Part shown: piece by piece, positions 13,851 to 49,845 of the stretch
Layout: the number at the start of each line of letters is the position of its first letter
Position numbering within the stretch: the stretch's first letter is position 1
Origin: Amaurobius ferox
Taxonomy: Eukaryota; Arthropoda; Arachnida; Araneae; Amaurobiidae
DNA length: 64,000 nucleotides
Direction of reading: 5' to 3'
Assembly: GCA_951213105.1 (NCBI GenBank)
Contig: OX578147.1
Span: forward strand, 126,960,822-127,024,821
Notes under the pieces: generated by a model
The model's input: the letters and a program-made list of their open reading frames with translations, nothing else
Database searches by the model: none
Told to the model about the DNA's origin: nothing
Translations under genes and position numbers: made by a program

Positions 13851-14046
13851 TTTTTTTTTATAAAGTCGATTGTGTATAGAAATTTACCCCTTACCCCTCA
13901 AACTGTTTATTGTATTCTGAATACAAGATTTTAATTCTTCTAAGAAATGATTTAAAGAGAAATGTGTTGACAGCAGAAAAATAAATTTTGCATTTTTCTT
14001 ATTTTTATAAAGTTAATTCAGATGGAAATTCACACAGTATGTGTAT

Positions 14047-14050
<4 letters not shown>

Positions 14051-14123
<73 letters not shown>

Positions 14124-14217
14124 GTTATATATATATATATATTCGGCCGTTACTCCTGTCACTCTTCTAGATATTTACGAGTACATTGTTACTTGTCCTT
14201 TTTTGGGAATTTATATA

Positions 14218-14262
<45 letters not shown>
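14051..14262. repeat. (TA)n microsatellites
   Basis: Two TA runs, about 14051-14120 and 14207-14262, are separated by ~80 bp. Tyr-Ile open frames across them are meaningless. Confidence 0.95.
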
Positions 14263-14264
<2 letters not shown>

Positions 14265-14469
14265 CTGTACTTAAATATTATTTGCTCCATTTTGATTTTC
14301 AGACGTCTTATTGTGCCAGATAATCTGACTGAAAGAAATTTAATCTGACATAAATTCTTTGAAAAATTCATGGGTCATTCGATTTATAATTTCCGGAACC
14401 CTTAATAATTTTTCAAGTCGGCGTCTATTGTCAACTCTCACTACACATATACCTTGTAAAGAACATTGC

Positions 14470-14541
14470 TGCCCCAACCGGGAATCGAACCCTGGGTCTC
14501 CGAACTGGCCAGCAGACGCTCTATCGTTGAGCTACTGGAAC
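14470..14541 (-). repeat. tRNA-like sequence (tRNA pseudogene or SINE head)
   Basis: On the minus strand the 72 nt have tRNA layout: a 7-bp acceptor stem with wobbles (GTTCCAG / TTGGGGC), an A-box-like TAGCTCAACGATAGAGCG and a good B box GGGTTCGATTCCC. The anticodon stem (TCTGC / TTCGG) does not pair well, so a functional tRNA is unlikely. Confidence 0.6.
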
Positions 14542-14641
14542 GAAATTGCAAACTGTTATAATCGAGGTGGACTCTTCAACCTACCCTGTACTCTCATAGA
14601 CCTCTCCTTACAAAGTTATTGAGGTACTTATGACCATTCTA

Positions 14642-15430
14642 AAGGAACCCATTTTATTATAAGAAAAGTAAATCAAAGTAAGGAGATTAAAGAATTGCAT
14701 TCTCAATCAGCGTTACGCGAAAGAAAATAAAAGTAAACCATCTGTCAAAAAGTGAGAGTTTCAAAAGATGGTGCAACGCTTAGCAAATATTTTTACAGAG
14801 AAACTCAACGCCCGTTTAGGGTTTTTCCACATTTACGTCACAAAGGAATGAAAACTTCAAATACGTAATTTAAAATGTTGATTTAACAGAGAGGAAATAA
14901 TTCTCTTTTCTGGAGGAGAGGTGTAAAACTTTTGAAATATGCGAACCACGCCTGCTACGCACGTCAATCAGATATTGCTGAATAAATTCATTTAACGTCG
15001 AGGGCGTAACACAATGGCTTTGTTCTTAATTTTAGAATATTAGTGATTTAGTAACCCAGATCAGTTTTTTCGAGTCCTCTAATTATTTAAAAGATATATA
15101 ATTGTGCTGTTTGCTAAAGTTAACAGATATATATAAATGCAATTTTCTTAATGTATCCTTTTTTCATTTTTTCATTTTTTGATGCCTGTAGTCTGAGTTT
15201 AAGCATTTATAGTAATGTACTATTGCTTAATCTGAAACAGGCATTTGTTTGGGTTAATTAGAGTTAAATACTCAGACCTGAAGAGGAATTTAATTCTGAT
15301 TAATCATCGAATTTGGGAAGGTTCTGTTCTTTTCTCTTATCGGCATTATGGCCGTGAATTTGCTTCTATGGTGATGTTAATATTATTGAATTGTATTTTT
15401 ATTTTTTTTTATTTTTACATAATTCTTATT
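14642..15430. other. Intergenic, no gene recognised
   Basis: AT-rich sequence without supported coding features. A (TA)n tract follows at 15441-15478. Confidence 0.35.
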
Positions 15431-15439
15431 ATTACATTT

Positions 15440-15483
<44 letters not shown>

Positions 15484-15567
15484 ATAACTGTAAATTCAGG
15501 AATTATCAAAGTAAAAACAGCAATCACACTTAGATGACGCATAGCAGCTTATGAAAGAGGATTTAAA

Positions 15568-15849
<282 letters not shown>

Positions 15850-16333
15850 CATGTATACGTGTAAATTAAGCCTTTCACAATAACGCGCCCTTTTCTTTCA
15901 TAATTACTATTCCAAATTCCTATTTCATGTCCAGCACATATTGCAATTACATTAAATTTTGTCCCACGCCACTTATATGAACAAAGTCTGCCAACATTTC
16001 TTTTTCTCTTCGACCGTACCAGATATGGTCACTAATCTTAACCTGTACCTAAACTTTCTCAGATGAAACTGTTTCACCATCATTTTTTAAACCTAAAACG
16101 CGAAGACAGCATGTGCCCCATGCCTCATATCCCTCCCTCTCCGATGTAAATGCAATTTGTACTTGTGTGTGAACCAACGCAGACTGCCCTAAGATTTGGT
16201 GAGAGCCAGCTGGTCGATGATCAGGAGTCGTCCAGGATATGTAACTATATCTGTTTCGAATGTGATATAATAAAGTAGATTTTGGTAATGTGAACGTGCC
16301 TCGTTCATGGATTTTCTCAACACACGCACACAC

Positions 16334-33266: not shown

Positions 33267-34188
33267 ATCTAATGTGAGCAACACATGACTTTCCTTATAT
33301 AATGTAATGAATTTAATACTTTTACATTAAAAAAATATATAGGTTTTTCTTATAGTAGATATTTATAGTCTTTCCAAGAAATTGAATTTTCGTCAATGAG
33401 TCGTCATTTTCACTGATTTAGTGTCATTTTTATCCATTTGGCGAGATTTTCGTTAACTTGGCAACATTTAAAAAGTCGCCAAGTTGGTGACATTCCGCCA
33501 AATTTGTCGCCAAAATCTCGCCAAGCGTTATGGACGGAGAAATAAGATATTCTTACAGCAGATAAATGACTATTGGCGTTCAAATACAAAAGTATTACTC
33601 AAAGTATCTTTTCTCATGAAAAGAACGAGCTAGATCCACGAGAATGATGTCACCCAATTTATCGCACGATATTACACATGAAAAGTGGACATGTTTCTCA
33701 ACAGTTAATATATTTTTTTTAATTTATGGGATTTTTTGATACATTTATTTGAAAAATGTGCAATATCTCGAGAACGGTTCATGCTAGCGTTCTAAAATTT
33801 ATGTCAATCGTTTTCTAAAGAAAAATTACATAAGAAATGTCTATTTGCGTAACTTTATTGAAGGTTTTGATTTTTTGACGAACATTTCAAAATTTCACTC
33901 GAAAATTTAGGGAGGGGTTCTGAACATTCGATTACGTTTAAAAACAATAGGCTTTCCAGTATTCACGGATTGTGATCTTTGTACCAAATTTCATTCGAAT
34001 CGCTCTATTCGTTCGTGAGATATCGTCTCCACAGACTCACTGACACATCCACACACACACACACGCATCACCTCAAAAATGTTTGATTCGTGATCAAGGA
34101 TGTTTGAAACGTGCTCTCCCGTCGAAAACTCGAATTCGAATTTTCGACCCCGTCACAATACTTTTCTTATACATTATGTATATAAGGA
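33267..34188 (-). repeat. Family A repeat, minus orientation
   Basis: From ATCTAATGTGAGCAACACAT to the 5' palindrome at 34160-34188, whose last bases (GGAAAGT) are altered. The internal blocks are all present. Confidence 0.75.
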
Positions 34189-36066: not shown

Positions 36067-36542
36067 ACTTTCCTTATATACATAGTATAATGTGTAAAGA
36101 AAGTATTGTAACGGGGTCGAAAATTTGTTCCGACGGGAGAGCACGTTTCAAGCATCCCTGATCACGAATCGAACATTTTTTATGTAATGTCTGTGTGTGT
36201 GTGTCAGTAAGACTGTGGAGACGATATCTCACGAACGAATGGAGCGATTCGAATGAAACTTGGTACAAAAATTACAATCCATGAATACTGAAAGCCCGTT
36301 GTTTTTAAACACAATTGTATGTTCAGAACCCTCCTAAATTTTCGACTGAAATTTCAAAAAAGTCATCAAAAAATCAAAACCTTTAACAAAGATACACAAA
36401 TAGACATTTCTTATGTAATTTTTCCTTAGAAAACGATTGACATTATAAAACGATTGATTCCTTAGAAAACGATTGACTTTAGCATGAACCGTTCTCCAGA
36501 TATTGTACATTTCTCAAATAAATTTATCAAAACATCCCATAA
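36067..36542 (+). repeat. Family A copy, left half of the interrupted target
   Basis: Start ACTTTCCTTATATACATAGT, followed by the GGGGTCGAAAATT block. It runs to ATCAAAACATCCCATAA, where the palindromic element begins. The continuation is at 49442. Confidence 0.8.
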
Positions 36543-36791
36543 GTAGGGGATTAGGGAGAGTTCAGCGGCACTTCAGAGGCGGTGAATCCCTATACTTTGA
36601 CATGGGGGACCCTCCGAGACCAGAAAATGAGTGCATCAACAGAGGCGGTGGTAAAGTCCCATGCTTTAACATAGGGGTTCTCAGAAGTCGGTGTGAGGCA
36701 GCACAGTTCCATAAGGTGACGTCACAGAAGAGAGTGGAGTTTATGACGTATATTGTTTTTCCTTTTTAGTAACAAAATTTCGTAAATGTAA

Positions 36792-36822
<31 letters not shown>

Positions 36823-37289
36823 CAACAAGTTGGATTTTGAGGGTTGTTGGATTTCTCTATGGGAAATAACATGAATTTTAAGAAAGTGTCACTTTTAGCG
36901 TTTTTTCACAAAAAGTTTCAAAAACGTTAAAAAACAACAAAAATGTACGTTTTTAAAATAAATTGTGGTTTTTAGATTGTTTGAATTCTCTATGGGAAAT
37001 AACATGGGTTTTCGCACTTTTGTGTATTTTTTGTAAAAAAAATGTGCGTTTTTGCAAAAGTGTTACCATAAAAGCGTTTTTTGAAAAAAGTGACATTTTG
37101 CGATTTTTTTTCAAAATGCCGTTTTCTCTATGGGAATTAACATAGGTTTTCGCACTTTTACATTTTTTTTTAAAAAATGGGCGTTTTTGCAAAAGTGTTA
37201 CCAAAAATGCGTTTTTTGAAAAATGTGACATTTTGCGATTTTTTTCAAAAACATACTTTTTACTTGTAAAAACTAAGAAAAACACGTTT

Positions 37290-37445
37290 TAAAAGTAGCA
37301 GAATCGCGTGAATCGGTGTTTTAAAGTAGTAGAATCGCGTGAATTGGTATTTTAAAGTAGCAGAATCGCGTGAATTGGTGTTTTAAAGTAGCAGAATCGC
37401 ATGAATTGATGTTTTAAAGTAGCAGAATCGCGTGAATCGGGTGTA
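37290..37445 (+). repeat. 31-bp iteron-like repeats, left arm (five units)
   Basis: The unit contains TAGCAGAATCGCGTGAAT and TTTTAAAG with period 31 bp. Its mirror image is at 48523-48713. Position outside the gene's 3' end, between terminus and polymerase gene, suits a replication or protein-binding site; that role is inference. Confidence 0.85.
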
Positions 37446-37543
37446 TGGGAATCTCGAGAATCTCGGGGGTTTAAGGGTTGTGTTTCCCCAATCCTTTCGT
37501 CTTGGATTTCAAAATTTAAATGCAGTAATGTCTCTTTAAGAAA

Positions 37544-40500
37544 TTAGATGCTGTTAGAAAAATATATTATTTTTTTTATTGTGGTCCCACCTCCACCCGG
37601 TGTATAGGATACACCGCCACAATTTCTTTTTTTTTTTTTTTTTTTCCTATTTTTTCCTTCTTTTTTTTTTTCCTTCTTTCTCTTTTTTCCTTTTTTTATT
37701 TTAAAATGTCCGTAGGCATAACTTGTAATGCCGTCCTCGAGTAAATATCTTTTGTCATCAATGGGTGACAAAGCCACCTTGTTCTGGCATACAGTGAATA
37801 GTTTATGATGACTACTATCAATTCTAATCTGTTCTTCCATGGTAGGTCTAACACTCAACAGGCATTGTCTATAGTCATTATGTGTAATTTTCCGTGCAAC
37901 CACATGTGTAGAAACACCTTTAGCTCTTTTCTTTTCTCCAGCAGCTGATAGAATAGAGTACATTTTAGGTCTAAGTCCTATAAACTCTTGAATGGGGGTT
38001 GAATTCAGTTCATCTTTAAAATATCCAATACGCTTTTTATTGTCTTCACTGAAGAGGGGATGATCCTTGGGATAGTCAGAAAAATCATACAAGTGTTTAT
38101 GCTGGTTCATATCTTCATAAATATCAGCAGTTTGGATTTCATAAGCCAATGAATCAGTATCGGTGAAGAGAAGCGAAGCTTTTTCACCATATTGGCTTTT
38201 AATATGTTTATAATGAAACTCATACATCAGGAGTTTAGATAACTCCAAGATAGCAAAGCCAACGTATATAGGCCGGTTCATTAAAATGCAATTCCTTACA
38301 CGTTCAACACCCACCAGATCTTCGCTAAAAATCCTGATAGCTCTAAAAGCTGGAGATGCCACCACCTTCAGGGCCCGCTTTGAAGAATTCACTAGTTCAA
38401 TATTCACTCGATTTCGAAGATTCTCCATCGTTTTTCCAAACACAGCGTTATTAAGCAATTTAAAAAAGTCTTTCTCAAAATTAGTCTTTGCCTTCTTTCT
38501 TTCTTCTGTGTTAAATTGGATGTATTTCTCCAACCAGGGCTTCTGATTAAATTTTAAGGTCTTGTGAATTTTCTTGAGTCTTAAACCTAATGATAGGTAT
38601 AGCTGAAGGTTCCGATAGTGAACAATATAATGTTTCTTGTCATGCAGATTGGGTACCAATTTCGTAGTACTAACAAAATGTCCATGATGTAACTGTTGAA
38701 CTAGTCGTTCAGCATAGGGGGAGAGCATTTCTCGTTCAATCTTCACCCTTTCAGGGGCTAGAGGGTATTCATTATGATAATCATGTAAGGATTCAGGATA
38801 CTCCAGATCCACTTCAAATATATATCCCTCTTGGGTATTATCCTTTAGACTCATTATCCAGAATTCATTCAAATTTTCTGTAGATATCCATTCAAAGCCA
38901 CCATAGGGCAGTGGTTGAGACATGGCCCAACCATATAGGTTATTAGCATCAAGATAGATAATGTGCTTATCAGGCTTAGAAGAATCGTAATTTTCCAAAT
39001 AACGATTATTAGCCTCGGATCTACGCTGACTTATCATACATATGCTACCGCGGATTCCACGTTCTATAAACAGTAACATATTTTCATCTGTGAGTAGTTC
39101 CAGGGTTTGCTCAGTCATTTTCAAAGAGGCCTGCCAAGCCAGTCCAGGGGCGGTCATCATATGAGCGGCGTCTAAATCATAGTTCTTCTTGCAAATTTTT
39201 CGAAAATTCTCAAATACATCGGCTAATAGTAGCACATCTGTTTTCACATACAGGTCGTGATATTCTCCCAAGTTCGTTATGTTGAAGGTATCCCATACAG
39301 TTTGGGCATGCCGATAATCTTCACTCTTAATATCTTCTCCTTTAATATCATTATGAAATGCAGAAGGGGGAGGGAGTACATTTTCATCAAATTTTTGAAA
39401 GGATGTCATATAGCTATAGGGATATACTCCTTTCCTAATAAGAGCATTCTGTTGTACTATATCGGGGAAATGTTCTCTGAGAATATAAAATTTACTCAAG
39501 TCTAAATTGGAAACTAGCTTTTCCAGGGAAGCATTCAGAAACTGTAGGCTATCAATAAATTGTAAACAGACACGGGGCCCCTCTTTCTTTGAAATCTTAA
39601 AAGATATGTATTTTTCAATATTAGTGGCAATCACATCAATTTTATGGTCTTGCAATTTCCCAAAACTTAGCATAATATGATGAGAGTCATAATTTTTTAA
39701 ATTATGAAACACTACAGGAATATTAATACTTTGTCTATAGTTAAGATTACAGGCATTATGCAGGGCACCTCTATAGGCTCCAGTCACGTGATTGTGATCA
39801 CGCACACGATCTGTTTTCAGTTCACGATGGCACACGTTACAATGGGTAGCTCTTTCAAAGTCAACTTCATTCTCTTTAGTCATTCGTAGTGGTTTAACAT
39901 AACGTAATTTTTCTCCAAGATACTGTTTCTCCATTATCAAGTTGTTAAGAAAATGATTCACAGGGTCGATACCTCGATACACAGTAGCTTGTTTCAGGCA
40001 TTTTCCATCAGGCCCTATAATAACATAAGCATATCCACAAGGTTCATGAATCGCTAGTCTATGCGTGTAAGATCTAATATTCGAGGGTTTAGTAGTGTCT
40101 TCTTTAACGATCAGGGCTTCAAAGTCAGCATAAATGATGAAAGGGATAGAATGCTGATACTGTTTGTTCGTGAATTGGAGATATTTCTGATCTTCCGAGG
40201 GCATTTCAATGCGCTGAGGTGCATGTTCTTTGCAATATTGAGCATGATCTTGCAAAAGATCGTCTCTACTGTAACGATGTAAACATCTATAACATATATA
40301 TTGGGCTCCATTGTGCTTAGTTATATCTCCCAGCAAGCGTGACATATTCCTTATGAGAGTATAGTGTTGCTTATCTTCATCACTAATCAGCAGGAGATTC
40401 ACACAGTCTTCATCTTCACGTTTGGATATATGCAAAGGAAAAATATCTTCATCTTCGTATCCATATACATTTATTCGTATATTATTCAATTTTTCAATCT

Positions 40501-41503
40501 GAGGAATCTTCACAACTGAGATAGGGTATTGAATATCTCCAAGTTTAATGTCATTTTCAAAACTTTTATAATGTGACACTCTTTCAGGCTTATATTCACG
40601 GGATATATAGTATTTGTGGGCTAATAGGCACCACACCAGGCATTTCTCGTCTTCATTTCGAATATTGAGTAAAGCTTTCTTGGCTGCAAGTTTTGTTGGC
40701 AAGGGTATATAGCTAGAAGCTGCAAGAGGCTTATACTTTGCACAGAAAACATCTATCTTTCGCATCTTTTGTAAAGTCCATCCAGAGCCTCGGCTTACAA
40801 ATTCCTCGAATAACTTCAAGATTTGTGAAAAAGCTTCTTCAGCATTGTTGGGAGGGGTATCATCACGAAGTTCTGTCACAACATCTGTTCTAAAATATGA
40901 GCTGGATACCTGTTGGCCATTTGCAACGTCACGAATAAATTGCACATCCGCAATAAGATACCACTTAATAGATCTGTATGCATCAAGTTCGTCTTTTAAT
41001 ATCTTCAATAGCTGAGGGCGAATTTCATCAAAACATAGCATAAGATCCCTCTCTACACTTTCAGTAGGTTCCAGAGTGTGTACAGAGAATACATCTAAAC
41101 CCTTCTTCTTCTTCGCTGCAATCTTGGGGCGCTTATTAGAAGTTGAGGCTAAAGCAGGAGCTTTTCTCTTTTTAGAACCATGTTCAATACGCTGATGGCG
41201 CAGGGCATCACTTTTCTTGCTGAATATAAGTTCACAATGCATGCATTTCACACCATCCTTCAGATGAAGTAACAGGTGGCGCTTCAGGTTATCTCGTCTA
41301 GTAAACTGTATGGAGCATTGAGTGCATTCAAACACTTTAACGGGAGAATGCATATTCGCATGTCTAGCCAAGTCTTCCTTACGAACAAATGCACGTTCGC
41401 ATACTTTACATCGATAAGTCAAGGCATCATCGTCAGAATGAATCTTCATATGTCTTGCTAAGGCATCTTTTCTGGAAAAGTGCTTATTACAAGATAAACA
41501 CAC
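37544..41503 (-). CDS. Family-B DNA polymerase with zinc fingers, exon 2 (left arm)
   Basis: This is the main exon of the gene whose intact-looking twin is at 44466-48323, where domains are detailed. All exonuclease and polymerase motifs are present. Compared with the twin, four residues of exon 2 differ (R/L after the zinc fingers, T/K, S/G, and E/K just after polymerase motif B). An 11-T run here versus 12-A in the twin shifts the frame in the Lys-rich tail. The reading frame therefore continues ~35 residues further, through the AATAAA region, to a stop at 37544-37546. Which C-terminus is the original cannot be decided from the sequence, but the twin's shorter tail ends before its poly(A) signal and is the likelier one. 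The splice acceptor (CTTGCAG in sense) ends at 41504. Confidence 0.9.
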   Translation of the reverse strand: MCLSCNKHFSRKDALARHMKIHSDDDALTYRCKVCERAFVRKEDLARHANMHSPVKVFECTQCSIQFTRRDNLKRHLLLHLKDGVKCMHCELIFSKKSDALRHQRIEHGSKKRKAPALASTSNKRPKIAAKKKKGLDVFSVHTLEPTESVERDLMLCFDEIRPQLLKILKDELDAYRSIKWYLIADVQFIRDVANGQQVSSSYFRTDVVTELRDDTPPNNAEEAFSQILKLFEEFVSRGSGWTLQKMRKIDVFCAKYKPLAASSYIPLPTKLAAKKALLNIRNEDEKCLVWCLLAHKYYISREYKPERVSHYKSFENDIKLGDIQYPISVVKIPQIEKLNNIRINVYGYEDEDIFPLHISKREDEDCVNLLLISDEDKQHYTLIRNMSRLLGDITKHNGAQYICYRCLHRYSRDDLLQDHAQYCKEHAPQRIEMPSEDQKYLQFTNKQYQHSIPFIIYADFEALIVKEDTTKPSNIRSYTHRLAIHEPCGYAYVIIGPDGKCLKQATVYRGIDPVNHFLNNLIMEKQYLGEKLRYVKPLRMTKENEVDFERATHCNVCHRELKTDRVRDHNHVTGAYRGALHNACNLNYRQSINIPVVFHNLKNYDSHHIMLSFGKLQDHKIDVIATNIEKYISFKISKKEGPRVCLQFIDSLQFLNASLEKLVSNLDLSKFYILREHFPDIVQQNALIRKGVYPYSYMTSFQKFDENVLPPPSAFHNDIKGEDIKSEDYRHAQTVWDTFNITNLGEYHDLYVKTDVLLLADVFENFRKICKKNYDLDAAHMMTAPGLAWQASLKMTEQTLELLTDENMLLFIERGIRGSICMISQRRSEANNRYLENYDSSKPDKHIIYLDANNLYGWAMSQPLPYGGFEWISTENLNEFWIMSLKDNTQEGYIFEVDLEYPESLHDYHNEYPLAPERVKIEREMLSPYAERLVQQLHHGHFVSTTKLVPNLHDKKHYIVHYRNLQLYLSLGLRLKKIHKTLKFNQKPWLEKYIQFNTEERKKAKTNFEKDFFKLLNNAVFGKTMENLRNRVNIELVNSSKRALKVVASPAFRAIRIFSEDLVGVERVRNCILMNRPIYVGFAILELSKLLMYEFHYKHIKSQYGEKASLLFTDTDSLAYEIQTADIYEDMNQHKHLYDFSDYPKDHPLFSEDNKKRIGYFKDELNSTPIQEFIGLRPKMYSILSAAGEKKRAKGVSTHVVARKITHNDYRQCLLSVRPTMEEQIRIDSSHHKLFTVCQNKVALSPIDDKRYLLEDGITSYAYGHFKIKKGKKRKKEKKKEGKNRKKKKKKRNCGGVSYTPGGGGTTIKKIIYFSNSI

Positions 41504-41574
41504 CTGCAAGAGATAAAAAAATACAAGACCTTAGTATAAACACGCTATTCTCGGTAACAATGTAATACATTTCA

Positions 41575-41609
<35 letters not shown>

Positions 41610-41833
41610 TTACAGATGTATATAAAGTAATCGCTAATCCATTATACTATCCCCATTAGAAATAATAAAATTCCTGGATTAAAGAATATATCCATATACA
41701 AGACATTTCATGTAAAACCCCAATACATTTAATTAAATTCATAAAAACACTCGTTAAAAAAGTTGTTACGCATCATAAAAATACAAAGTTTAATAAAATG
41801 AGAGAATAAAATCACATTAAAACAAGTACTTAC

Positions 41834-41926
41834 ATGTCCAATCCTGTTCAAAAAAGGTGCATTACGCATAGGAACATCAGTAACGGTAGGGATAGTACCT
41901 CCGATATTACTTTCTAAGGCAAACAT
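41834..41926 (-). CDS. Family-B DNA polymerase, exon 1 (left arm)
   Basis: Thirty-one codons from an ATG at 41926-41924, ending at a consensus donor (GTAAGTAC, sense strand, at 41833-41826). The exon ends in phase 0, matching the phase-0 acceptor at 41503. One residue differs from the right-arm exon (F versus S). The intron carries a (TA)n tract at 41580-41606. Confidence 0.8.
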
Positions 41927-42743
41927 ACTCGCAGAGCAACTTCAAACACGACTTAACAGCACGAAACTCACAACAGAAATGATAAAATCGCTGCTTAAAG
42001 ACCACCTACATCCATTCATAAAAAATAGTTCCTGGTGTATCCTTCCACCAAGGTCACCCCAAGGTTATCTCTAAAGAGTTCTTGATGTATCCGTAAGCCA
42101 AGGGCATGCCAAGGTCACATGATAGTTATATCACGGTTACCGCTAGATTTACAACACGCGAATGTAATTATGCACACATCCGATAAAAAATAAACAATTC
42201 ATTCAACATCGCAATCGATTATATCCTTTTTTAATAATTGTAATCGATACATTAAATAGATTCACATCTTATAAAATAATAGATTTTAATAAAATAATGA
42301 AAGAAAATCCATTTGCGAGACCCCCTAAAACCTCCAATCGTTATGCAATACAACAACGCGCAAGCATAAAAACCCCCGAATAACATACTCCTCTCTCCCC
42401 CTCCCTCCCCGAGACACCAACACTCACTTCCCCATACACTAAACGTAACCCATAGCAACCGGAATCCATAATAAAACATTCACCTTCACCCCCAACGTAC
42501 ATCCAAATACACAGTCATTCAACGTGAAACCCGTATTTTTACAGTAAAAATCACTTTACAGGGATTCATAGAACAAAAATCCCTAAAAAATCAACAAATT
42601 CACCCAGAAACTAGCTAAAACCCTCAAATTACTTATAATTATCGTCTACATATGCTATATAACCATTTACAACCTTAAAAAGGTGAGTATGCTAGTAGTA
42701 AGGAAAGGTGGGTTCGCCAGAATGCGGTTAGAGCAATGCCGCC

Positions 42744-43219
42744 TAAAAATAGTTTCTGGAAAGAAAAAATAAATATTTTTTGGTATTTCCAGAAAGTATC
42801 CTCTATGTAATATTTTGGTAAAATTAAAAAGTTTTTAAAAAATTTTAAAAACTCAATTTTTTATTAATTTTCTCAAAATTCCTAATTTTCCTATTAGTAT
42901 CCCTTTTCGCCGCTAGGGGGCGGTTATGGTTCCATACCGCCTTCGCAGGTGTTGCCACCTCCAAAACCGTTTCTCCCATACTTAGAAAAAATCCCATTCC
43001 AAAAATTTATTTCCCCCTCAACCCCTCGTACAAGACTACGAGATCGTTGCCACCCGACAAAAAGTTTCTAAAAAATTTTCACCCCCACCTTTTTTCATTT
43101 CCCCCCCTTTTACACCCCCGTCCAGGAGGTCCGGCCGACTAATCGGTTGCTCATGTCCTTGCTGACGAGCCGGTCGGTCTGGGTCTTCAACCCCCGTCCA
43201 GGATTACAGAATTCAAGAT
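42744..43219. other. Asymmetric central spacer of the palindrome
   Basis: About 476 bp with no mirror symmetry. It is AT-rich at first, then rich in C runs and containing CCGCTAGGGGGCGG near 42910. It has no open frame of note. A tiny retroposon has inserted at its right side (43128-43189), so the original spacer was about 400 bp. Confidence 0.8.
43128..43189 (+). mobile_element. Tiny hairpin retroposon (62 bp) in the palindrome spacer
   Basis: The core is CCGGCCGACT ... AGCCGGTCGGTCTGGGTCTT. ACCCCCGTCCAGGA flanks it at 43114-43127 and 43190-43203 (14 bp). The middle (GGTTGCTCATGTCCTTGCTG) resembles the copy at 16334. Confidence 0.75.
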
Positions 43220-43229
43220 GGCGGCATTG

Positions 43230-44036
43230 CTCTAACCGCATTCTGGCGAACGCCCCTATTCTTACTACTAGCATACTCACCTTTTTAAGGTTGTAAATGG
43301 TTATATAGCATATGTAGACGATAATTATAAGTAATTTGAGGGTTTTAGCTAGTTTCTGGGTGAATTTGTTGATTTTTTAGGGATTTTTGTTCTATGAATC
43401 CCTGTAAAGTGATTTTTACTGTAAAAATACGGGTTTCACGTTGAATGACTGTGTATTTGGATGTACGTTGGGGGTGAAGGTGAATGTTTTATTATGGATT
43501 CCGGTTGCTATGGGTTACGTTTAGTGTATGGGGAAGTGAGTGTTGGTGTCTCGGGGAGGGAGGGGGAGAGAGGAGTATGTTATTCGGGGGTTTTTATGCT
43601 TGCGCGTTGTTGTATTGCATAACGATTGGAGGTTTTAGGGGGTCTCGCAAATGGATTTTCTTTCATTATTTTATTAAAATCTATTATTTTATAAGATGTG
43701 AATCTATTTAATGTATCGATTACAATTATTAAAAAAGGATATAATCGATTGCGATGTTGAATGAATTGTTTATTTTTTATCGGATGTGTGCATAATTACA
43801 TTCGCGTGTTGTAAATCTAGCGGTAACCGTGATATAACTATCATGTGACCTTGGCATGCCCTTGGCTTACGGATACATCAAGAACTCTTTAGAGATAACC
43901 TTGGGGTGACCTTGGTGGAAGGATACACCAGGAACTATTTTTTATGAATGGATGTAGGTGGTCTTTAAGCAGCGATTTTATCATTTCTGTTGTGAGTTTC
44001 GTGCTGTTAAGTCGTGTTTGAAGTTGCTCTGCGAGT
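43230..44036 (+). promoter_or_regulatory. Upstream region of the right-arm polymerase gene
   Basis: The ~800 bp between the spacer and exon 1 must hold the promoter. A TATATAG lies at 43302, but it is ~730 bp from the ATG and no start site can be fixed. A 75-codon frame (43484-43711) is present, identically, in both arms. Because the arms are near-identical everywhere, that is not evidence of coding. Confidence 0.3.
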
Positions 44037-44129
44037 ATGTTTGCCTTAGAAAGTAATATCGGAGGTACTATCCCTACCGTTACTGATGTTCCTATGCGTA
44101 ATGCACCTTCTTTGAACAGGATTGGACAT
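44037..44129 (+). CDS. Family-B DNA polymerase, exon 1 (right arm)
   Basis: Thirty-one codons starting at the ATG at 44037 and closing at the donor GTAAGTAC (44130 on). The exon length is a multiple of three and the acceptor TCTTGCAG ends at 44465, so the frame enters exon 2 at GTG 44466 in phase. This supplies the missing initiator: the long downstream frame has no ATG before its first zinc finger. The short leader has no recognised domain and no signal peptide. Confidence 0.8.
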
Positions 44130-44353
44130 GTAAGTACTTGTTTTAATGTGATTTTATTCTCTCATTTTATTAAACTTTGTATTTTTATGATGCGTAACAA
44201 CTTTTTTAATGAGTGTTTTTATGAATTTAATTAAATGTATTGGGGTTTTACATGAAATGTCTTGTATATGGATATATTCTTTAATCCAGGAATTTTATTA
44301 TTTCTAATGGGGATAGTATAATGGATTAGCGATTACTTTATATACATCTGTAA

Positions 44354-44394
<41 letters not shown>

Positions 44395-44465
44395 TGAAAT
44401 GTATTACATTGTTACCGAGAATAGCGTGTTTATACTAAGGTCTTGTATTTTTTTATCTCTTGCAG
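44130..44465 (+). other. Intron of the right-arm polymerase gene
   Basis: A 336-bp GT-AG intron with GTAAGT donor and a T-rich tract (GTATTTTTTTATCTCTTGCAG region) before the acceptor. It contains a (TA)n tract at about 44352-44389 that is longer than in the left arm. A spliceosomal intron means expression in a eukaryotic nucleus. Confidence 0.8.
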
Positions 44466-47400
44466 GTGTGTTTATCTTGTAATAAGCACTTTTCCAGAAA
44501 AGATGCCTTAGCAAGACATATGAAGATTCATTCTGACGATGATGCCTTGACTTATCGATGTAAAGTATGCGAACGTGCATTTGTTCGTAAGGAAGACTTG
44601 GCTAGACATGCGAATATGCATTCTCCCGTTAAAGTGTTTGAATGCACTCAATGCTCCATACAGTTTACTAGACGAGATAACCTGAAGCGCCACCTGTTAC
44701 TTCATCTGAAGGATGGTGTGAAATGCATGCATTGTGAACTTATATTCAGCAAGAAAAGTGATGCCCTGCGCCATCAGCGTATTGAACATGGTTCTAAAAA
44801 GAGAAAAGCTCCTGCTTTAGCCTCAACTTCTAATAAGCTCCCCAAGATTGCAGCGAAGAAGAAGAAGGGTTTAGATGTATTCTCTGTACACACTCTGGAA
44901 CCTACTGAAAGTGTAGAGAGGGATCTTATGCTATGTTTTGATGAAATTCGCCCTCAGCTATTGAAGATATTAAAAGACGAACTTGATGCATACAGATCTA
45001 TTAAGTGGTATCTTATTGCGGATGTGCAATTTATTCGTGACGTTGCAAATGGCCAACAGGTATCCAGCTCATATTTTAGAACAGATGTTGTGACAGAACT
45101 TCGTGATGATACCCCTCCCAACAATGCTGAAGAAGCTTTTTCACAAATCTTGAAGTTATTCGAAGAATTTGTCAGCCGAGGCTCTGGATGGACTTTACAA
45201 AAGATGCGAAAGATAGATGTTTTCTGTGCAAAGTATAAGCCTCTTGCAGCTTCTAGCTATATACCCTTGCCAACAAAACTTGCAGCCAAGAAAGCTTTAC
45301 TCAATATTCGAAATGAAGACGAGAAATGCCTGGTGTGGTGCCTATTAGCCCACAAATACTATATATCCCGTGAATATAAGCCTGAAAGAGTGTCACATTA
45401 TAAAAGTTTTGAAAATGACATTAAACTTGGAGATATTCAATACCCTATCTCAGTTGTGAAGATTCCTCAGATTGAAAAATTGAATAATATACGAATAAAT
45501 GTATATGGATACGAAGATGAAGATATTTTTCCTTTGCATATATCCAAACGTGAAGATGAAGACTGTGTGAATCTCCTGCTGATTAGTGATGAAGATAAGC
45601 AACACTATACTCTCATAAGGAATATGTCACGCTTGCTGGGAGATATAACTAAGCACAATGGAGCCCAATATATATGTTATAGATGTTTACATCGTTACAG
45701 TAGAGACGATCTTTTGCAAGATCATGCTCAATATTGCAAAGAACATGCACCTCAGCGCATTGAAATGCCCTCGGAAGATCAGAAATATCTCCAATTCACG
45801 AACAAACAGTATCAGCATTCTATCCCTTTCATCATTTATGCTGACTTTGAAGCCCTGATCGTTAAAGAAGACACTACTAAACCCTCGAATATTAGATCTT
45901 ACACGCATAGACTAGCGATTCATGAACCTTGTGGATATGCTTATGTTATTATAGGGCCTGATGGAAAATGCCTGAAACAAGCTACTGTGTATCGAGGTAT
46001 CGACCCTGTGAATCATTTTCTTAACAACTTGATAATGGAGAAACAGTATCTTGGAGAAAAATTACGTTATGTTAAACCACTACGAATGACTAAAGAGAAT
46101 GAAGTTGACTTTGAAAGAGCTACCCATTGTAACGTGTGCCATCGTGAACTGAAAACAGATCGTGTGCGTGATCACAATCACGTGACTGGAGCCTATAGAG
46201 GTGCCCTGCATAATGCCTGTAATCTTAACTATAGACAAAGTATTAATATTCCTGTAGTGTTTCATAATTTAAAAAATTATGACTCTCATCATATTATGCT
46301 GAGTTTTGGGAAATTGCAAGACCATAAAATTGATGTGATTGCCACTAATATTGAAAAATACATATCTTTTAAGATTTCAAAGAAAGAGGGGCCCCGTGTC
46401 TGTTTACAATTTATTGATAGCCTACAGTTTCTGAATGCTTCCCTGGAAAAGCTAGTTTCCAATTTAGACTTGAGTAAATTTTATATTCTCAGAGAACATT
46501 TCCCCGATATAGTACAACAGAATGCTCTTATTAGGAAAGGAGTATATCCCTATAGCTATATGACATCCTTTCAAAAATTTGATGAAAATGTACTCCCTCC
46601 CCCTTCTGCATTTCATAATGATATTAAAGGAGAAGATATTAAGAGTGAAGATTATCGGCATGCCCAAACTGTATGGGATACCTTCAACATAAAGAACTTG
46701 GGAGAATATCACGACCTGTATGTGAAAACAGATGTGCTACTATTAGCCGATGTATTTGAGAATTTTCGAAAAATTTGCAAGAAGAACTATGATTTAGACG
46801 CCGCTCATATGATGACCGCCCCTGGACTGGCTTGGCAGGCCTCTTTGAAAATGACTGAGCAAACCCTGGAACTACTCACAGATGAAAATATGTTACTGTT
46901 TATAGAACGTGGAATCCGTGGTGGCATATGTATGATAAGTCAGCGTAGATCCGAGGCTAATAATCGTTATTTGGAAAATTACGATTCTTCTAAGCCTGAT
47001 AAGCACATTATCTATCTTGATGCTAATAACCTATATGGTTGGGCCATGTCTCAACCACTGCCCTATGGTGGCTTTGAATGGATATCTACAGAAAATTTGA
47101 ATGAATTCTGGATAATGAGTCTAAAGGATAATACCCAAGAGGGATATATATTTGAAGTGGATCTGGAGTATCCTGAATCCTTACATGATTATCATAATGA
47201 ATACCCTCTAGCCCCTGAAAGGGTGAAGATTGAACGAGAAATGCTCTCCCCCTATGCTGAACGACTAGTTCAACAGTTACATCATGGACATTTTGTTAGT
47301 ACTACGAAATTGGTACCCAATCTGCATGACAAGAAACATTATATTGTTCACTATCGGAACCTTCAGCTATACCTATCATTAGGTTTAAGACTCAAGAAAA

Positions 47401-48323
47401 TTCACAAGACCTTAAAATTTAATCAGAAGCCCTGGTTAGAGAAATACATCCAATTTAACACAGAAGAAAGAAAGAAGGCAAAGACTAATTTTGAGAAAGA
47501 CTTTTTTAAATTGCTTAATAACGCTGTGTTTGGAAAAACGATGAAAAATCTTCGAAATCGAGTGAATATTGAACTAGTGAATTCTTCAAAGCGGGCCCTG
47601 AAGGTGGTGGCATCTCCAGCTTTTAGAGCTATCAGGATTTTTAGCGAAGATCTGGTGGGTGTTGAACGTGTAAGGAATTGCATTTTAATGAACCGGCCTA
47701 TATACGTTGGCTTTGCTATCTTGGAGTTATCTAAACTCCTGATGTATGAGTTTCATTATAAACATATTAAAAGCCAATATGGTGAAAAAGCTTCGCTTCT
47801 CTTCACCGATACTGATTCATTGGCTTATGAAATCCAAACTGCTGATATTTATGAAGATATGAACCAGCATAAACACTTGTATGATTTTTCTGACTATCCC
47901 AAGGATCATCCCCTCTTCAGTGAAGACAATAAAAAGCGTATTGGATATTTTAAAGATGAACTGAATTCAACCCCCATTCAAGAGTTTATAGGACTTAGAC
48001 CTAAAATGTACTCTATTCTATCAGCTGCTGGAGAAAAGAAAAGAGCTAAAGGTGTTTCTACACATGTGGTTGCACGGAAAATTACACATAATGACTATAG
48101 ACAATGCCTGTTGAGTGTTAGACCTACCATGGAAGAACAGATTAGAATTGATAGTAGTCATCATAAACTATTCACTGTATGCCAGAACAAGGTGGCTTTG
48201 TCACCCATTGATGACAAAAGATATTTACTCGAGGACGGCATTACAAGTTATGCCTACGGACATTTTAAAATAAAAAAAGGAAAAAAGAGAAAGAAGGAAA
48301 AAAAAAAAAGAAGGAAAAAATAG
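44466..48323 (+). CDS. Family-B DNA polymerase with C2H2 fingers and EndoVII-like module, exon 2 (right arm)
   Basis: Replicative-type DNA polymerase, probably replicating the element itself. Residue numbers are for the spliced product (about 1316 aa). Four C2H2 fingers lie at 33-53, 63-83, 91-111 and 118-139, then Lys/Arg-rich likely nuclear signals. A C2HC-type finger begins at ~435. The 3'-5' exonuclease has ExoI D491-x-E493, ExoII N632-xxxx-D637 and ExoIII Y783-xxx-D787. Between ExoI and ExoII sits a zinc/HNH module (C586-xx-C589, D600-H-N-H603, then H613-xx-C616-N) like T4 endonuclease VII. Polymerase motif A has D883 (DANNLYG), motif B K1046-LLNNAVFG and motif C D1146-T-D1148. The C-terminus is a Lys-rich run. 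All catalytic residues appear intact. The fold matches the viral/organellar PolB (DNA_pol_B_2) group; protein priming is inferred. Confidence 0.92.
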   Translation: MCLSCNKHFSRKDALARHMKIHSDDDALTYRCKVCERAFVRKEDLARHANMHSPVKVFECTQCSIQFTRRDNLKRHLLLHLKDGVKCMHCELIFSKKSDALRHQRIEHGSKKRKAPALASTSNKLPKIAAKKKKGLDVFSVHTLEPTESVERDLMLCFDEIRPQLLKILKDELDAYRSIKWYLIADVQFIRDVANGQQVSSSYFRTDVVTELRDDTPPNNAEEAFSQILKLFEEFVSRGSGWTLQKMRKIDVFCAKYKPLAASSYIPLPTKLAAKKALLNIRNEDEKCLVWCLLAHKYYISREYKPERVSHYKSFENDIKLGDIQYPISVVKIPQIEKLNNIRINVYGYEDEDIFPLHISKREDEDCVNLLLISDEDKQHYTLIRNMSRLLGDITKHNGAQYICYRCLHRYSRDDLLQDHAQYCKEHAPQRIEMPSEDQKYLQFTNKQYQHSIPFIIYADFEALIVKEDTTKPSNIRSYTHRLAIHEPCGYAYVIIGPDGKCLKQATVYRGIDPVNHFLNNLIMEKQYLGEKLRYVKPLRMTKENEVDFERATHCNVCHRELKTDRVRDHNHVTGAYRGALHNACNLNYRQSINIPVVFHNLKNYDSHHIMLSFGKLQDHKIDVIATNIEKYISFKISKKEGPRVCLQFIDSLQFLNASLEKLVSNLDLSKFYILREHFPDIVQQNALIRKGVYPYSYMTSFQKFDENVLPPPSAFHNDIKGEDIKSEDYRHAQTVWDTFNIKNLGEYHDLYVKTDVLLLADVFENFRKICKKNYDLDAAHMMTAPGLAWQASLKMTEQTLELLTDENMLLFIERGIRGGICMISQRRSEANNRYLENYDSSKPDKHIIYLDANNLYGWAMSQPLPYGGFEWISTENLNEFWIMSLKDNTQEGYIFEVDLEYPESLHDYHNEYPLAPERVKIEREMLSPYAERLVQQLHHGHFVSTTKLVPNLHDKKHYIVHYRNLQLYLSLGLRLKKIHKTLKFNQKPWLEKYIQFNTEERKKAKTNFEKDFFKLLNNAVFGKTMKNLRNRVNIELVNSSKRALKVVASPAFRAIRIFSEDLVGVERVRNCILMNRPIYVGFAILELSKLLMYEFHYKHIKSQYGEKASLLFTDTDSLAYEIQTADIYEDMNQHKHLYDFSDYPKDHPLFSEDNKKRIGYFKDELNSTPIQEFIGLRPKMYSILSAAGEKKRAKGVSTHVVARKITHNDYRQCLLSVRPTMEEQIRIDSSHHKLFTVCQNKVALSPIDDKRYLLEDGITSYAYGHFKIKKGKKRKKEKKKRRKK

Positions 48324-48387
48324 GAAAAAAGAAAAAAGAAAGAAATTGTGGCGGTGTATCCTATACACCGGGTGGAGGTGGGACCAC

Positions 48388-48393
48388 AATAAA
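48388..48393 (+). terminator. Poly(A) signal of the right-arm polymerase gene
   Basis: AATAAA about 65 nt after the stop at 48323, with an AT-rich downstream context. The mirrored copy lies inside the frame-shifted tail of the left-arm gene. Confidence 0.5.
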
Positions 48394-48522
48394 AAAAATA
48401 ATATATTTTTCTAACAGCATCTAATTTCTTAAAGAGACATTACTGCATTTAAATTTTGAAATCCAAGACGAAAGGATTGGGGAAACACAACCCTTAAACC
48501 CCCGAGATTCTCGAGATTCCCA

Positions 48523-48713
48523 TACACCCGATTCACGCGATTCTGCTACTTTAAAACATCAATTCATGCGATTCTGCTACTTTAAAACACCAATTCACGC
48601 GATTCTGCTACTTTAAAATACCAATTCACGCGATTCTGCTACTTTAAAACACCAATTCACGCGATTCTACTACTTTAAAACACCGATTCACGCGATTCTG
48701 CTACTTTTAAAAC
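48523..48713 (-). repeat. 31-bp iteron-like repeats, right arm
   Basis: Mirror of 37290-37445, with ATTCACGCGATTCTGCTA and CTTTAAAA units at 31-bp spacing. Confidence 0.85.
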
Positions 48714-49441
48714 GTGTTTTTCTTAGTTTTTACAAGTAAAAAGTATGTTTTTGAAAAAAATCGCAAAATGTCACATTTTTCAAAAAACGCATTTTTGGTA
48801 ACACTTTTGCAAAAACGCACATTTTTTAAAAAAAAATGTAAAAGTGCGAAAACCTATGTTCATTCCCATAGAGAAAACGGCATTTTGAAAAAAAATCGCA
48901 AAATGTCACATTTTTCAAAAAACGCTTTTTTGGTAACACTTTTGCAAAAACGCACATTTTTTTTACAAAAAATACACAAAAGTGCGAAAACCCATGTTAT
49001 TTCCCATAGAGAATTCAAACAATCTAAAAACCACAATTTATTTTAAAAACGTACATTTTTGTTGTTTTTTAACGTTTTTGAAACTTTTTGTGAAAAAACG
49101 CTAAAAGTGACACTTTCTTAAAATTCATGTTATTTCCCATAGAGAAATCCAACAACCCTCAAAATCCAACTTGTTGAAAAAAAAAAAAAAACTTACATTT
49201 ACGAAATTTTGTTACTAAAAAGGAAAAACAATATACGTCATAAACTCCACTCTCTTCTGTGACGTCACCTTATGGAACTGTGCTGCCTCACACCGACTTC
49301 TGAGAACCCCTATGTTAAAGCATGGGACTTTACCACCGCCTCTGTTGATGCACTCATTTTCTGGTCTCGGAGGGTCCCCCATGTTAAAGTATAGGGATTC
49401 ACCGCCTCTGAAGTGCCGCTGAACTCTCCCTAATCCCCTAC

Positions 49442-49845
49442 TCCCATAAATTAAAAATATATATATTAACTGTCGAGGAACATGTTCACTTTTCATATGT
49501 AATATCGTGCGATAAATTGGGTGACATCATTCTCTTGGATCCAGCTCATTCCATTCATGAGAAAAGATACTTACAGTAATACTTTTGTATTTGAACGCCA
49601 ATATTCATTTATCTGCTATATAAGAATAACTTATTTCTCCGTTCATAACGCTTGGCGAGATTTTGACGACGAATTTGGCCGAATGTCACCAACTTGGGGA
49701 CTTTTTCTTAATGTTGTCAAATTAACGAAAATCCCGCCGAGTGGATAAAAATGACGCTAAATCAATTAAAATGACGACCTATTGACGAAAATTCAATATC
49801 TTGGAATGACTATAAATATCTACTATAAGAATAACCTATATATTT
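49442..49845 (+). repeat. Family A copy, right half of the interrupted target
   Basis: Resumes with TCCCATAAATTAAAA exactly where the left half stops (36542) and continues through CATATGTAATATCGTGCGAT to the 20-bp units. It is 3'-truncated by the start of the next family A copy. Confidence 0.8.

Follow-up and report, generated by a model that had tools for sequence, protein, structure and literature searches.

A dispersed palindromic element of the spider Amaurobius ferox with a Polinton-type DNA polymerase gene in each arm

The window analysed here, a 64,000-nucleotide stretch of the genome of the spider Amaurobius ferox (GenBank assembly GCA_951213105.1, contig OX578147.1, positions 126,960,822 to 127,024,821 of the forward strand), contains a 12.9-kb palindrome in which two inverted arms, each with its own DNA polymerase gene (PolB), surround an asymmetric spacer. 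We read it, with a probability of about 0.62, as a member of a Polinton/Maverick-derived family that is reduced to PolB, whose terminal inverted repeats (TIRs) span nearly the whole element, whose arms are equalised by protein-primed snapback replication, and whose integrase acts in trans. Direct support comes from 6-bp target-site duplications (TSDs), AGT...ACT ends, a predicted two-exon PolB in each arm, searches that detected no further Polinton gene, the likeness of the arms, selection on the gene, dispersal in the genome, and a second family; what we infer are a stage outside the chromosome, a snapback intermediate, and the borrowing of an integrase.

Structure of the element in the window

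The element occupies positions 36542..49442 (12,901 bp). Its left arm, a giant TIR, runs from 36542 to 42743 (+ strand) and begins AGTAGGGGATTAGGG, the right arm mirrors it from 43220 to 49442 (− strand) and ends CCCTAATCCCCTACT, and the spacer fills 42744..43219 (476 bp). Identity between the arms is 99.4% over the inner 5.5 kb and 97.2% over the outer 0.9 kb, and inverted pairs, each 99% complementary, are found at 37628-41607/44362-48341, 41576-42743/43220-44387, 36808-37437/48562-49191, and 36542-36807/49177-49442. Each arm has one PolB open reading frame (ORF), the two (1321 and 1287 aa) lying on opposite strands and both reading outward. In the left arm, predicted exon 1 (41834..41926, − strand) has 31 codons and a GTAAGT donor, and predicted exon 2 (37544..41503, − strand) encodes zinc fingers followed by terminal-protein-like, OTU-like, exonuclease, and polymerase parts; the corresponding predicted exons of the right arm are at 44037..44129 and 44466..48323 (+ strand), with the predicted intron at 44130-44465. 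The host repeat that the element interrupts is collinear with a related, unoccupied copy outside the element (86% identity over 33331-34177, with the junction near 33721-33780), and the part of this copy that aligns across the insertion point (33721..33780, − strand) serves as a proxy for the empty site. The first-pass annotation of this DNA had described a 12.9-kb palindrome with ~6.2-kb arms and a ~0.48-kb asymmetric spacer, two outward polymerase copies, and a host repeat that becomes collinear once the insert is removed, all of which is borne out here; its borders (36543..49441) located the element and stopped one base short of its limits on each side.

Ends and target-site duplications

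Comparison with further elements sets the limits. The base before the end motif is A and the base after the mirror motif is T in 10 of 10 further elements, so the outer A and T belong to the element; because these bases are constant and the next six mostly match, the element begins with AGTAGGGG and finishes with CCCCTACT, which leaves CCCATA as the duplication in the window (36536..36541 on the left and 49443..49448 on the right). Across 15 elements (14 of the window's family, family A, and one of family B, described below) the 6-bp duplication matches at 6/6 positions in 13 and at 5/6 in two. Among the 13 is L025, which matches at 4/6 at its nearer terminus and at 6/6 with a second terminus 4.8 kb on, a post hoc reading. 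The AGT...ACT termini lie within the inverted repeats and read AGTAGGGG in family A and AGTAGATAAG in the one copy of family B that was read.

An 8-bp duplication, TCCCATAA, had been reported at both borders in the first-pass annotation and is indeed seen on both sides in the window alone, as it would be if a classical DNA transposon with 8-bp TSDs (hAT, P, or foldback type) had captured a polymerase gene. The comparison rules this duplication out, as none of the 10 further elements has an 8-of-8 match (judged by eye), and the constant outer bases and the full 6-mer matches in 13 of 15 elements likewise speak against such a transposon, as does the failure of Pfam to report a transposase family in PolB or in 10 small ORFs. 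We consider this origin very improbable.

Copies across the genome

We searched the 3.56-Gb genome (276 contigs, the window being on contig C16). At a tolerance of up to 2 mismatches, the window contains the end motif twice, where chance alone predicts 0.12 occurrences; exact matches in the genome number 394 (200 forward and 194 reverse; a reversed control pattern gave 0 and 5). Pairing was examined among 100 listed places of these 394: 76 ends form 38 inward-facing pairs and 24 are unpaired, and 30 of the 38 pairs span 12.3-13.4 kb (median 12.67 kb). A search for termini and their flanks, as proposed at first pass, thus recovers palindromic copies, and the palindrome is a dispersed family and no one-off product of assembly.

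One of the 24 unpaired ends is the second terminus of L025, and for 20 of the remaining 23 the expected partner place was inspected: five have a degenerate partner end, three have arm sequence in mirror orientation, one has a simple repeat only, and 11 have nothing. For five of these 11, 0.9 kb at ~6 kb from the end was also inspected, with a mirror end in one (giving a copy of about 6.7 kb), inner arm and spacer in another, and nothing in three. The first-pass annotation had proposed looking for single-arm and empty-site copies alongside palindromic ones; the empty-site proxy was found, and this small search of 20 partner places and five places at ~6 kb contained no clean single-arm insertion. 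The 7.8- and 8.1-kb versions (L032-L035) are ruled out as single-arm forms, being deletion copies with one PolB and repeats of 2.0-2.4 kb (0 mismatches in 1,965 and 21 in 2,361 aligned columns). A 20.8-kb version (L029/L030, G000:C1:112728895-112750286) is likewise ruled out as an autonomous long form: it is the palindrome with a long terminal repeat (LTR) retrotransposon nested in one arm. The LTRs show 1 difference in 898 bp and the arms around them 8 differences in 3,197 and 7 in 1,247, and the nested element is younger than the divergence of the surrounding arms. A 19.2-kb version is also present on C5.

At L025/L026 with L037/L038 (G000:C2:88413016-88438324), one copy has beyond it ~3.0 kb of that copy's left flank, duplicated in inverted orientation, and then a third, partial arm. 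The flank duplicate comprises 2,670 bp at 99.85% and an adjoining 299 bp at 100%, the outer ends carry the 6-bp duplication CATATT, and the arrangement arose either through a rearrangement that the palindrome drove once inserted or through a fold-back in the assembly. A possible fold-back here might suggest that the palindromes as a whole are snapback chimeras of assembly. Such an artefact is scarcely credible given 38 inward pairs among 100 listed ends, with differing flanks and a TSD that matches on either side, a few base differences between the arms (3.7% in L027, see below), an asymmetric spacer, and a second family that shares the same plan.

Arms are alike within elements and diverged between them

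Arms measure 6.0-6.4 kb in all 11 full-size elements measured, a set that excludes the two deletion copies. In 10 of the 11, the two arms of an element disagree at 0.02-0.39% of the bases aligned; between elements the difference is 2.0-6.6%. The nearest relative of an arm is its own partner in 20 of 22 cases, which none of 10,000 random pairings equalled, and left-left, right-right, and left-right distances between elements are about the same. Given this closeness within pairs and the similar distances between sides, left and right arms are not separately inherited lineages and have been equalised anew.

The spacer is one homologous, asymmetric segment across the 11 family-A elements compared (three read in part), and the palindrome with its spacer is therefore an inherited unit. 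Main aligned pieces of the window spacer are 88-95% identical to the spacers of the 10 other elements (three of the 10 read in part). A conserved spacer motif, CTAGGGG[G/A]CG (window 42913..42922, + strand), is present in 10 of the 11 family-A spacers and in the single family-B spacer. The CCGCTAGGGGGCGCT-like motif at 42913, which occurs once across the whole window, presumably resembles the CTCF core.

The exception is L027, whose arms come from two branches of the tree and differ at 217 of 5,911 bases (3.7%) inside an intact 6/6 duplication; an unequal molecule was therefore apparently inserted, in keeping with recombination or annealing between two elements that replicated together.

The polymerase and its selection

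A Pfam search with the window PolB (E up to 1) reported no DNA-polymerase family, and the protein is identified from its homologues, motifs, and predicted fold. The motifs are conserved among homologues, and the polymerase part of the predicted fold matches phi29. The N-terminal LF/PAD and OTU fold matches are modest: similarity of the N-terminal model to Y-family LF/PAD domains is weak in Foldseek (best E 3e-3), and the phi29 terminal protein is absent among the matches listed for this model. Viral models closest in fold are polymerases labelled densovirus, adintovirus, and bidnavirus. PolB is thus of the Polinton/adintovirus protein-primed type, with a predicted priming activity. Its best named relatives are from spiders (54-57% identity), and a scan of IMG/VR gave no match with a single protein query and one relative, the adintovirus L031, with an alignment query.

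Among 11 intact frames (55 comparisons), the ratio of nonsynonymous to synonymous substitution rates (dN/dS) has a median of 0.18 (range 0.08-0.52), with 0.59 in the zinc-finger part and 0.09-0.17 in the other parts. Between the arms of one element it is 0.62, a value that comes from 27 changes only in seven elements; left out were L009, L021, and L025 (broken frames), the hetero-arm element L027, and L029 (one arm read). There are 8 synonymous and 19 nonsynonymous changes between arms versus 171 and 97 in four disjoint element pairs (p 7.6e-4; the counting rules differ slightly). As judged by these substitution patterns, PolB is kept by purifying selection through cycles of transposition, and the arms drift after insertion. 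A replicase gene alone, with neither integrase nor capsid, can therefore stay under purifying selection in a dispersed element. Of 36 genome matches to the window PolB frame, 33 have one or two stops within the alignment, and most PolB frames in the arms read end earlier than that of the window. The same PolB break is found in both arms of L009 and in both arms of L021, and L025 has a break in one arm; the shared breaks suggest that copying carried defective frames to both arms and that other copies nevertheless helped them to insert, and conversion after insertion could likewise spread such breaks.

Long palindromes undergo arm-to-arm conversion, and host gene conversion across the chromosomal palindrome, acting after a Polinton-derived element had been inserted, might be what keeps the arms alike. 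The likeness of arms in 10 of 11 elements would follow from it, and the breaks common to both arms of L009 and L021 fit it equally well. Some observations point the other way, though not decisively: differences between arms look nearly unselected and those between elements are strongly selected, as if the two arms had been equal when they were inserted and had drifted since; L027 has retained differing arms within its intact TSD; and the LTR retrotransposon of L029/L030 is younger than the arms around it, a sensible order if no recent conversion took place. We regard host conversion as an unlikely, though not negligible, source of the likeness.

A second family shares the chassis

A genome search with the L031 polymerase, which is 38% identical to the window PolB, revealed a second family (family B). 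The PolB group found with this query has 10 divergent pairs, 4.8-7.2 kb apart, and 16 unpaired matches among 36 scored, and the window PolB gave 14 divergent pairs and eight unpaired matches, also among 36; neither list of 36 has convergent or same-strand PolB neighbours within 12 kb. The one family-B member read (L039/L040, G000:C13:102559000-102576000) carries AGTAGATAAG ends and a GACAAG duplication, and its 6,409-bp arms align without a mismatch and with a single gap. At the protein level its PolB body shares 45% identity with that of the window, whereas the inner arm, part of the spacer, and the subterminal repeats are ~85-94% identical in aligned DNA pieces, so different PolB bodies can occupy one common chassis. 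Strong DNA likeness ends within 7 bp of the border between intron and exon 2 and returns ~20 bp past the stop codon, with short, weak matches only within exon 2, a pattern as in cassette exchange.

Missing Polinton genes and possible helpers

Neither the window nor three other elements gave a match to two rve-type integrase queries, except in the nested LTR element of L030. ATPase, protease-like, and candidate capsid queries had no tblastn match in the window at E 0.01, a threshold that very diverged genes could escape, and Pfam reported nothing above cut-off in 10 small ORFs. Such genes do have matches elsewhere in the genome: 144 for A32-type ATPase (all scored, with 1,881 first-look candidates; 23-31% identical; one Pfam-confirmed) and 129 for rve integrase (all scored; retroelement integrases may be included), the two lying within 15 kb of each other at seven places. 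The locus L041/L042 (G000:C14:94167500-94187499) reads as a Polinton-type gene set with ATPase and integrase, several gene names being read from ORFs. Its 20 kb contain no long inverted repeat and share no detectable DNA with the window element, and all 61 end places listed for C1-C5 lie more than 25 kb from the ATPase/integrase places used. In the ORF reading, the L041/L042 integrase has a chromodomain-like end and is directly followed by a reverse transcriptase resembling that of long interspersed nuclear elements.

The presence of Polinton-type genes in the same genome is consistent with a satellite of polintoviruses or adintoviruses, in which the palindrome would be the putative packaged linear genome, with its own PolB for replication and an integrase, and perhaps capsids, borrowed from complete relatives in one and the same cell. 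The viral polymerases closest in fold are in keeping with this, and the narrow lengths (30 of 38 pairs at 12.3-13.4 kb) could reflect a packaging limit, but they may mean just recent common descent; we think a satellite rather improbable. Somewhat less doubtful, and still tentative, is the idea of a distinct lineage of obligately palindromic, protein-primed, replicase-only replicons, linear snapback genomes with the replicase in two copies, that recreate their own palindrome at every cycle, swap PolB cassettes on a common chassis, and parasitise complete polintoviruses for integration and perhaps packaging.

A model of snapback replication

In protein-primed replication, synthesis begins at the ends of a linear DNA and one strand is displaced, whose end repeats can anneal into a panhandle; a 1988 paper cited in PMC9863843 reportedly deals with the panhandle of adenovirus. 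In the Polinton-derived element that we favour, the terminal-protein-like domain of PolB would prime DNA synthesis on a linear copy outside the chromosome, beginning at its AGT ends. The single strand set free in this way would fold into a hairpin of ~6.2 kb with the ~0.5-kb spacer as its loop, so that the panhandle would be nearly the whole genome. Any difference between arms would then be a mismatch within one molecule, fixable in either direction before insertion, and copying or mismatch repair of the snapback form could make both arms identical within a replication cycle. An rve-type integrase acting in trans, probably from complete Polintons of the same genome, would insert the linear product and leave the 6-bp duplication. 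The inverted dimer of a linear self-replicating element, suggested at first pass, is a sensible forerunner of this model and fits both the near-identical arms and the one hetero-arm copy. Near-identical halves in most copies examined point to an unusual, hairpin-like copying of DNA, and elements composed almost wholly of inverted repeats, with equal arms in most copies and unequal arms in one, make the Polinton replication model directly testable from sequence and extrachromosomal DNA. The suggestion that Polintons use protein priming and pass through a single-stranded stage (PMC4061559) draws largely on analogy with adenovirus and phi29.

Relation to known systems

With Polintons/Mavericks the palindrome shares a 6-bp TSD, AGT...ACT ends, TIRs, and the PolB domain set: intact vertebrate Mavericks are described with ends of the (AGT)2//(ACT)2 type, TSDs of 6 bp, and TIRs that measure 46-1,447 bp (PMC8097293), 6-bp duplications are given as typical of rve integrases (PMC12220804), and terminal-protein-like, OTU-like, exonuclease, and polymerase parts are described for Polinton PolB (PMC11071308). 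It differs in that no integrase, ATPase, protease, or capsid gene was detected, in its TIRs of 6.0-6.4 kb (length is no strict criterion), and in having two PolB genes, each with a predicted intron and N-terminal C2H2 fingers. For algal polinton-like viruses, TIRs of hundreds to thousands of bp are described, the screened range being 100 bp to 8 kb (PMC12220804). Because the defining gene content is absent, we do not file the element as a Polinton proper despite its Polinton ends, duplication, and polymerase; "Polinton-derived palindromic element" is the most fitting name. The earlier picture of a mobile element that consists of giant inverted arms with a replicase in each stands, as does its contrast with Polintons in gene content; the supposed contrast in TSD length falls away.

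The adintovirus example, L031 (15.7 of the 17.4 kb of an IMG/VR contig), resembles the element in its polymerase, adintovirus polymerases being among the best fold matches. It differs in having an A32-type ATPase and an rve integrase (both by Pfam) and a 477-aa ORF read as major capsid, which has no Pfam match, and it contains no long inverted repeat within the 15.7-kb stretch. Bidnaviruses share linear DNA, repeats that form a panhandle, and a suggested PolB-type replication; as described, they are viruses with packaged single-stranded genomes that include helicase and capsid genes, and the common terminal sequence of Bombyx mori bidensovirus is 53 nt, in contrast to arms that span the genome (PMC4938981, PMC4061559). 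The foldback element Galileo has long, internally repetitive inverted repeats (PMC3573991) and is placed with P elements by its transposase, whereas the ends, TSD, and enzyme of the palindrome are of Polinton type. In the titles and abstract starts of the literature searched, we found no palindromic polymerase-only relative of Polintons; most subscription papers and Repbase reports lie outside that search.

Host DNA flanking the element in the window includes a repeat family whose spacing is mostly 8 bp, together with a 152-bp tandem repeat array (13956-15916 and 814-1674). Elsewhere in the genome, end motifs are clustered on C5, which has at least 30: 13 of the 30 places listed there fall within 2.6 Mb (G000:C5:113.58-116.14 Mb).

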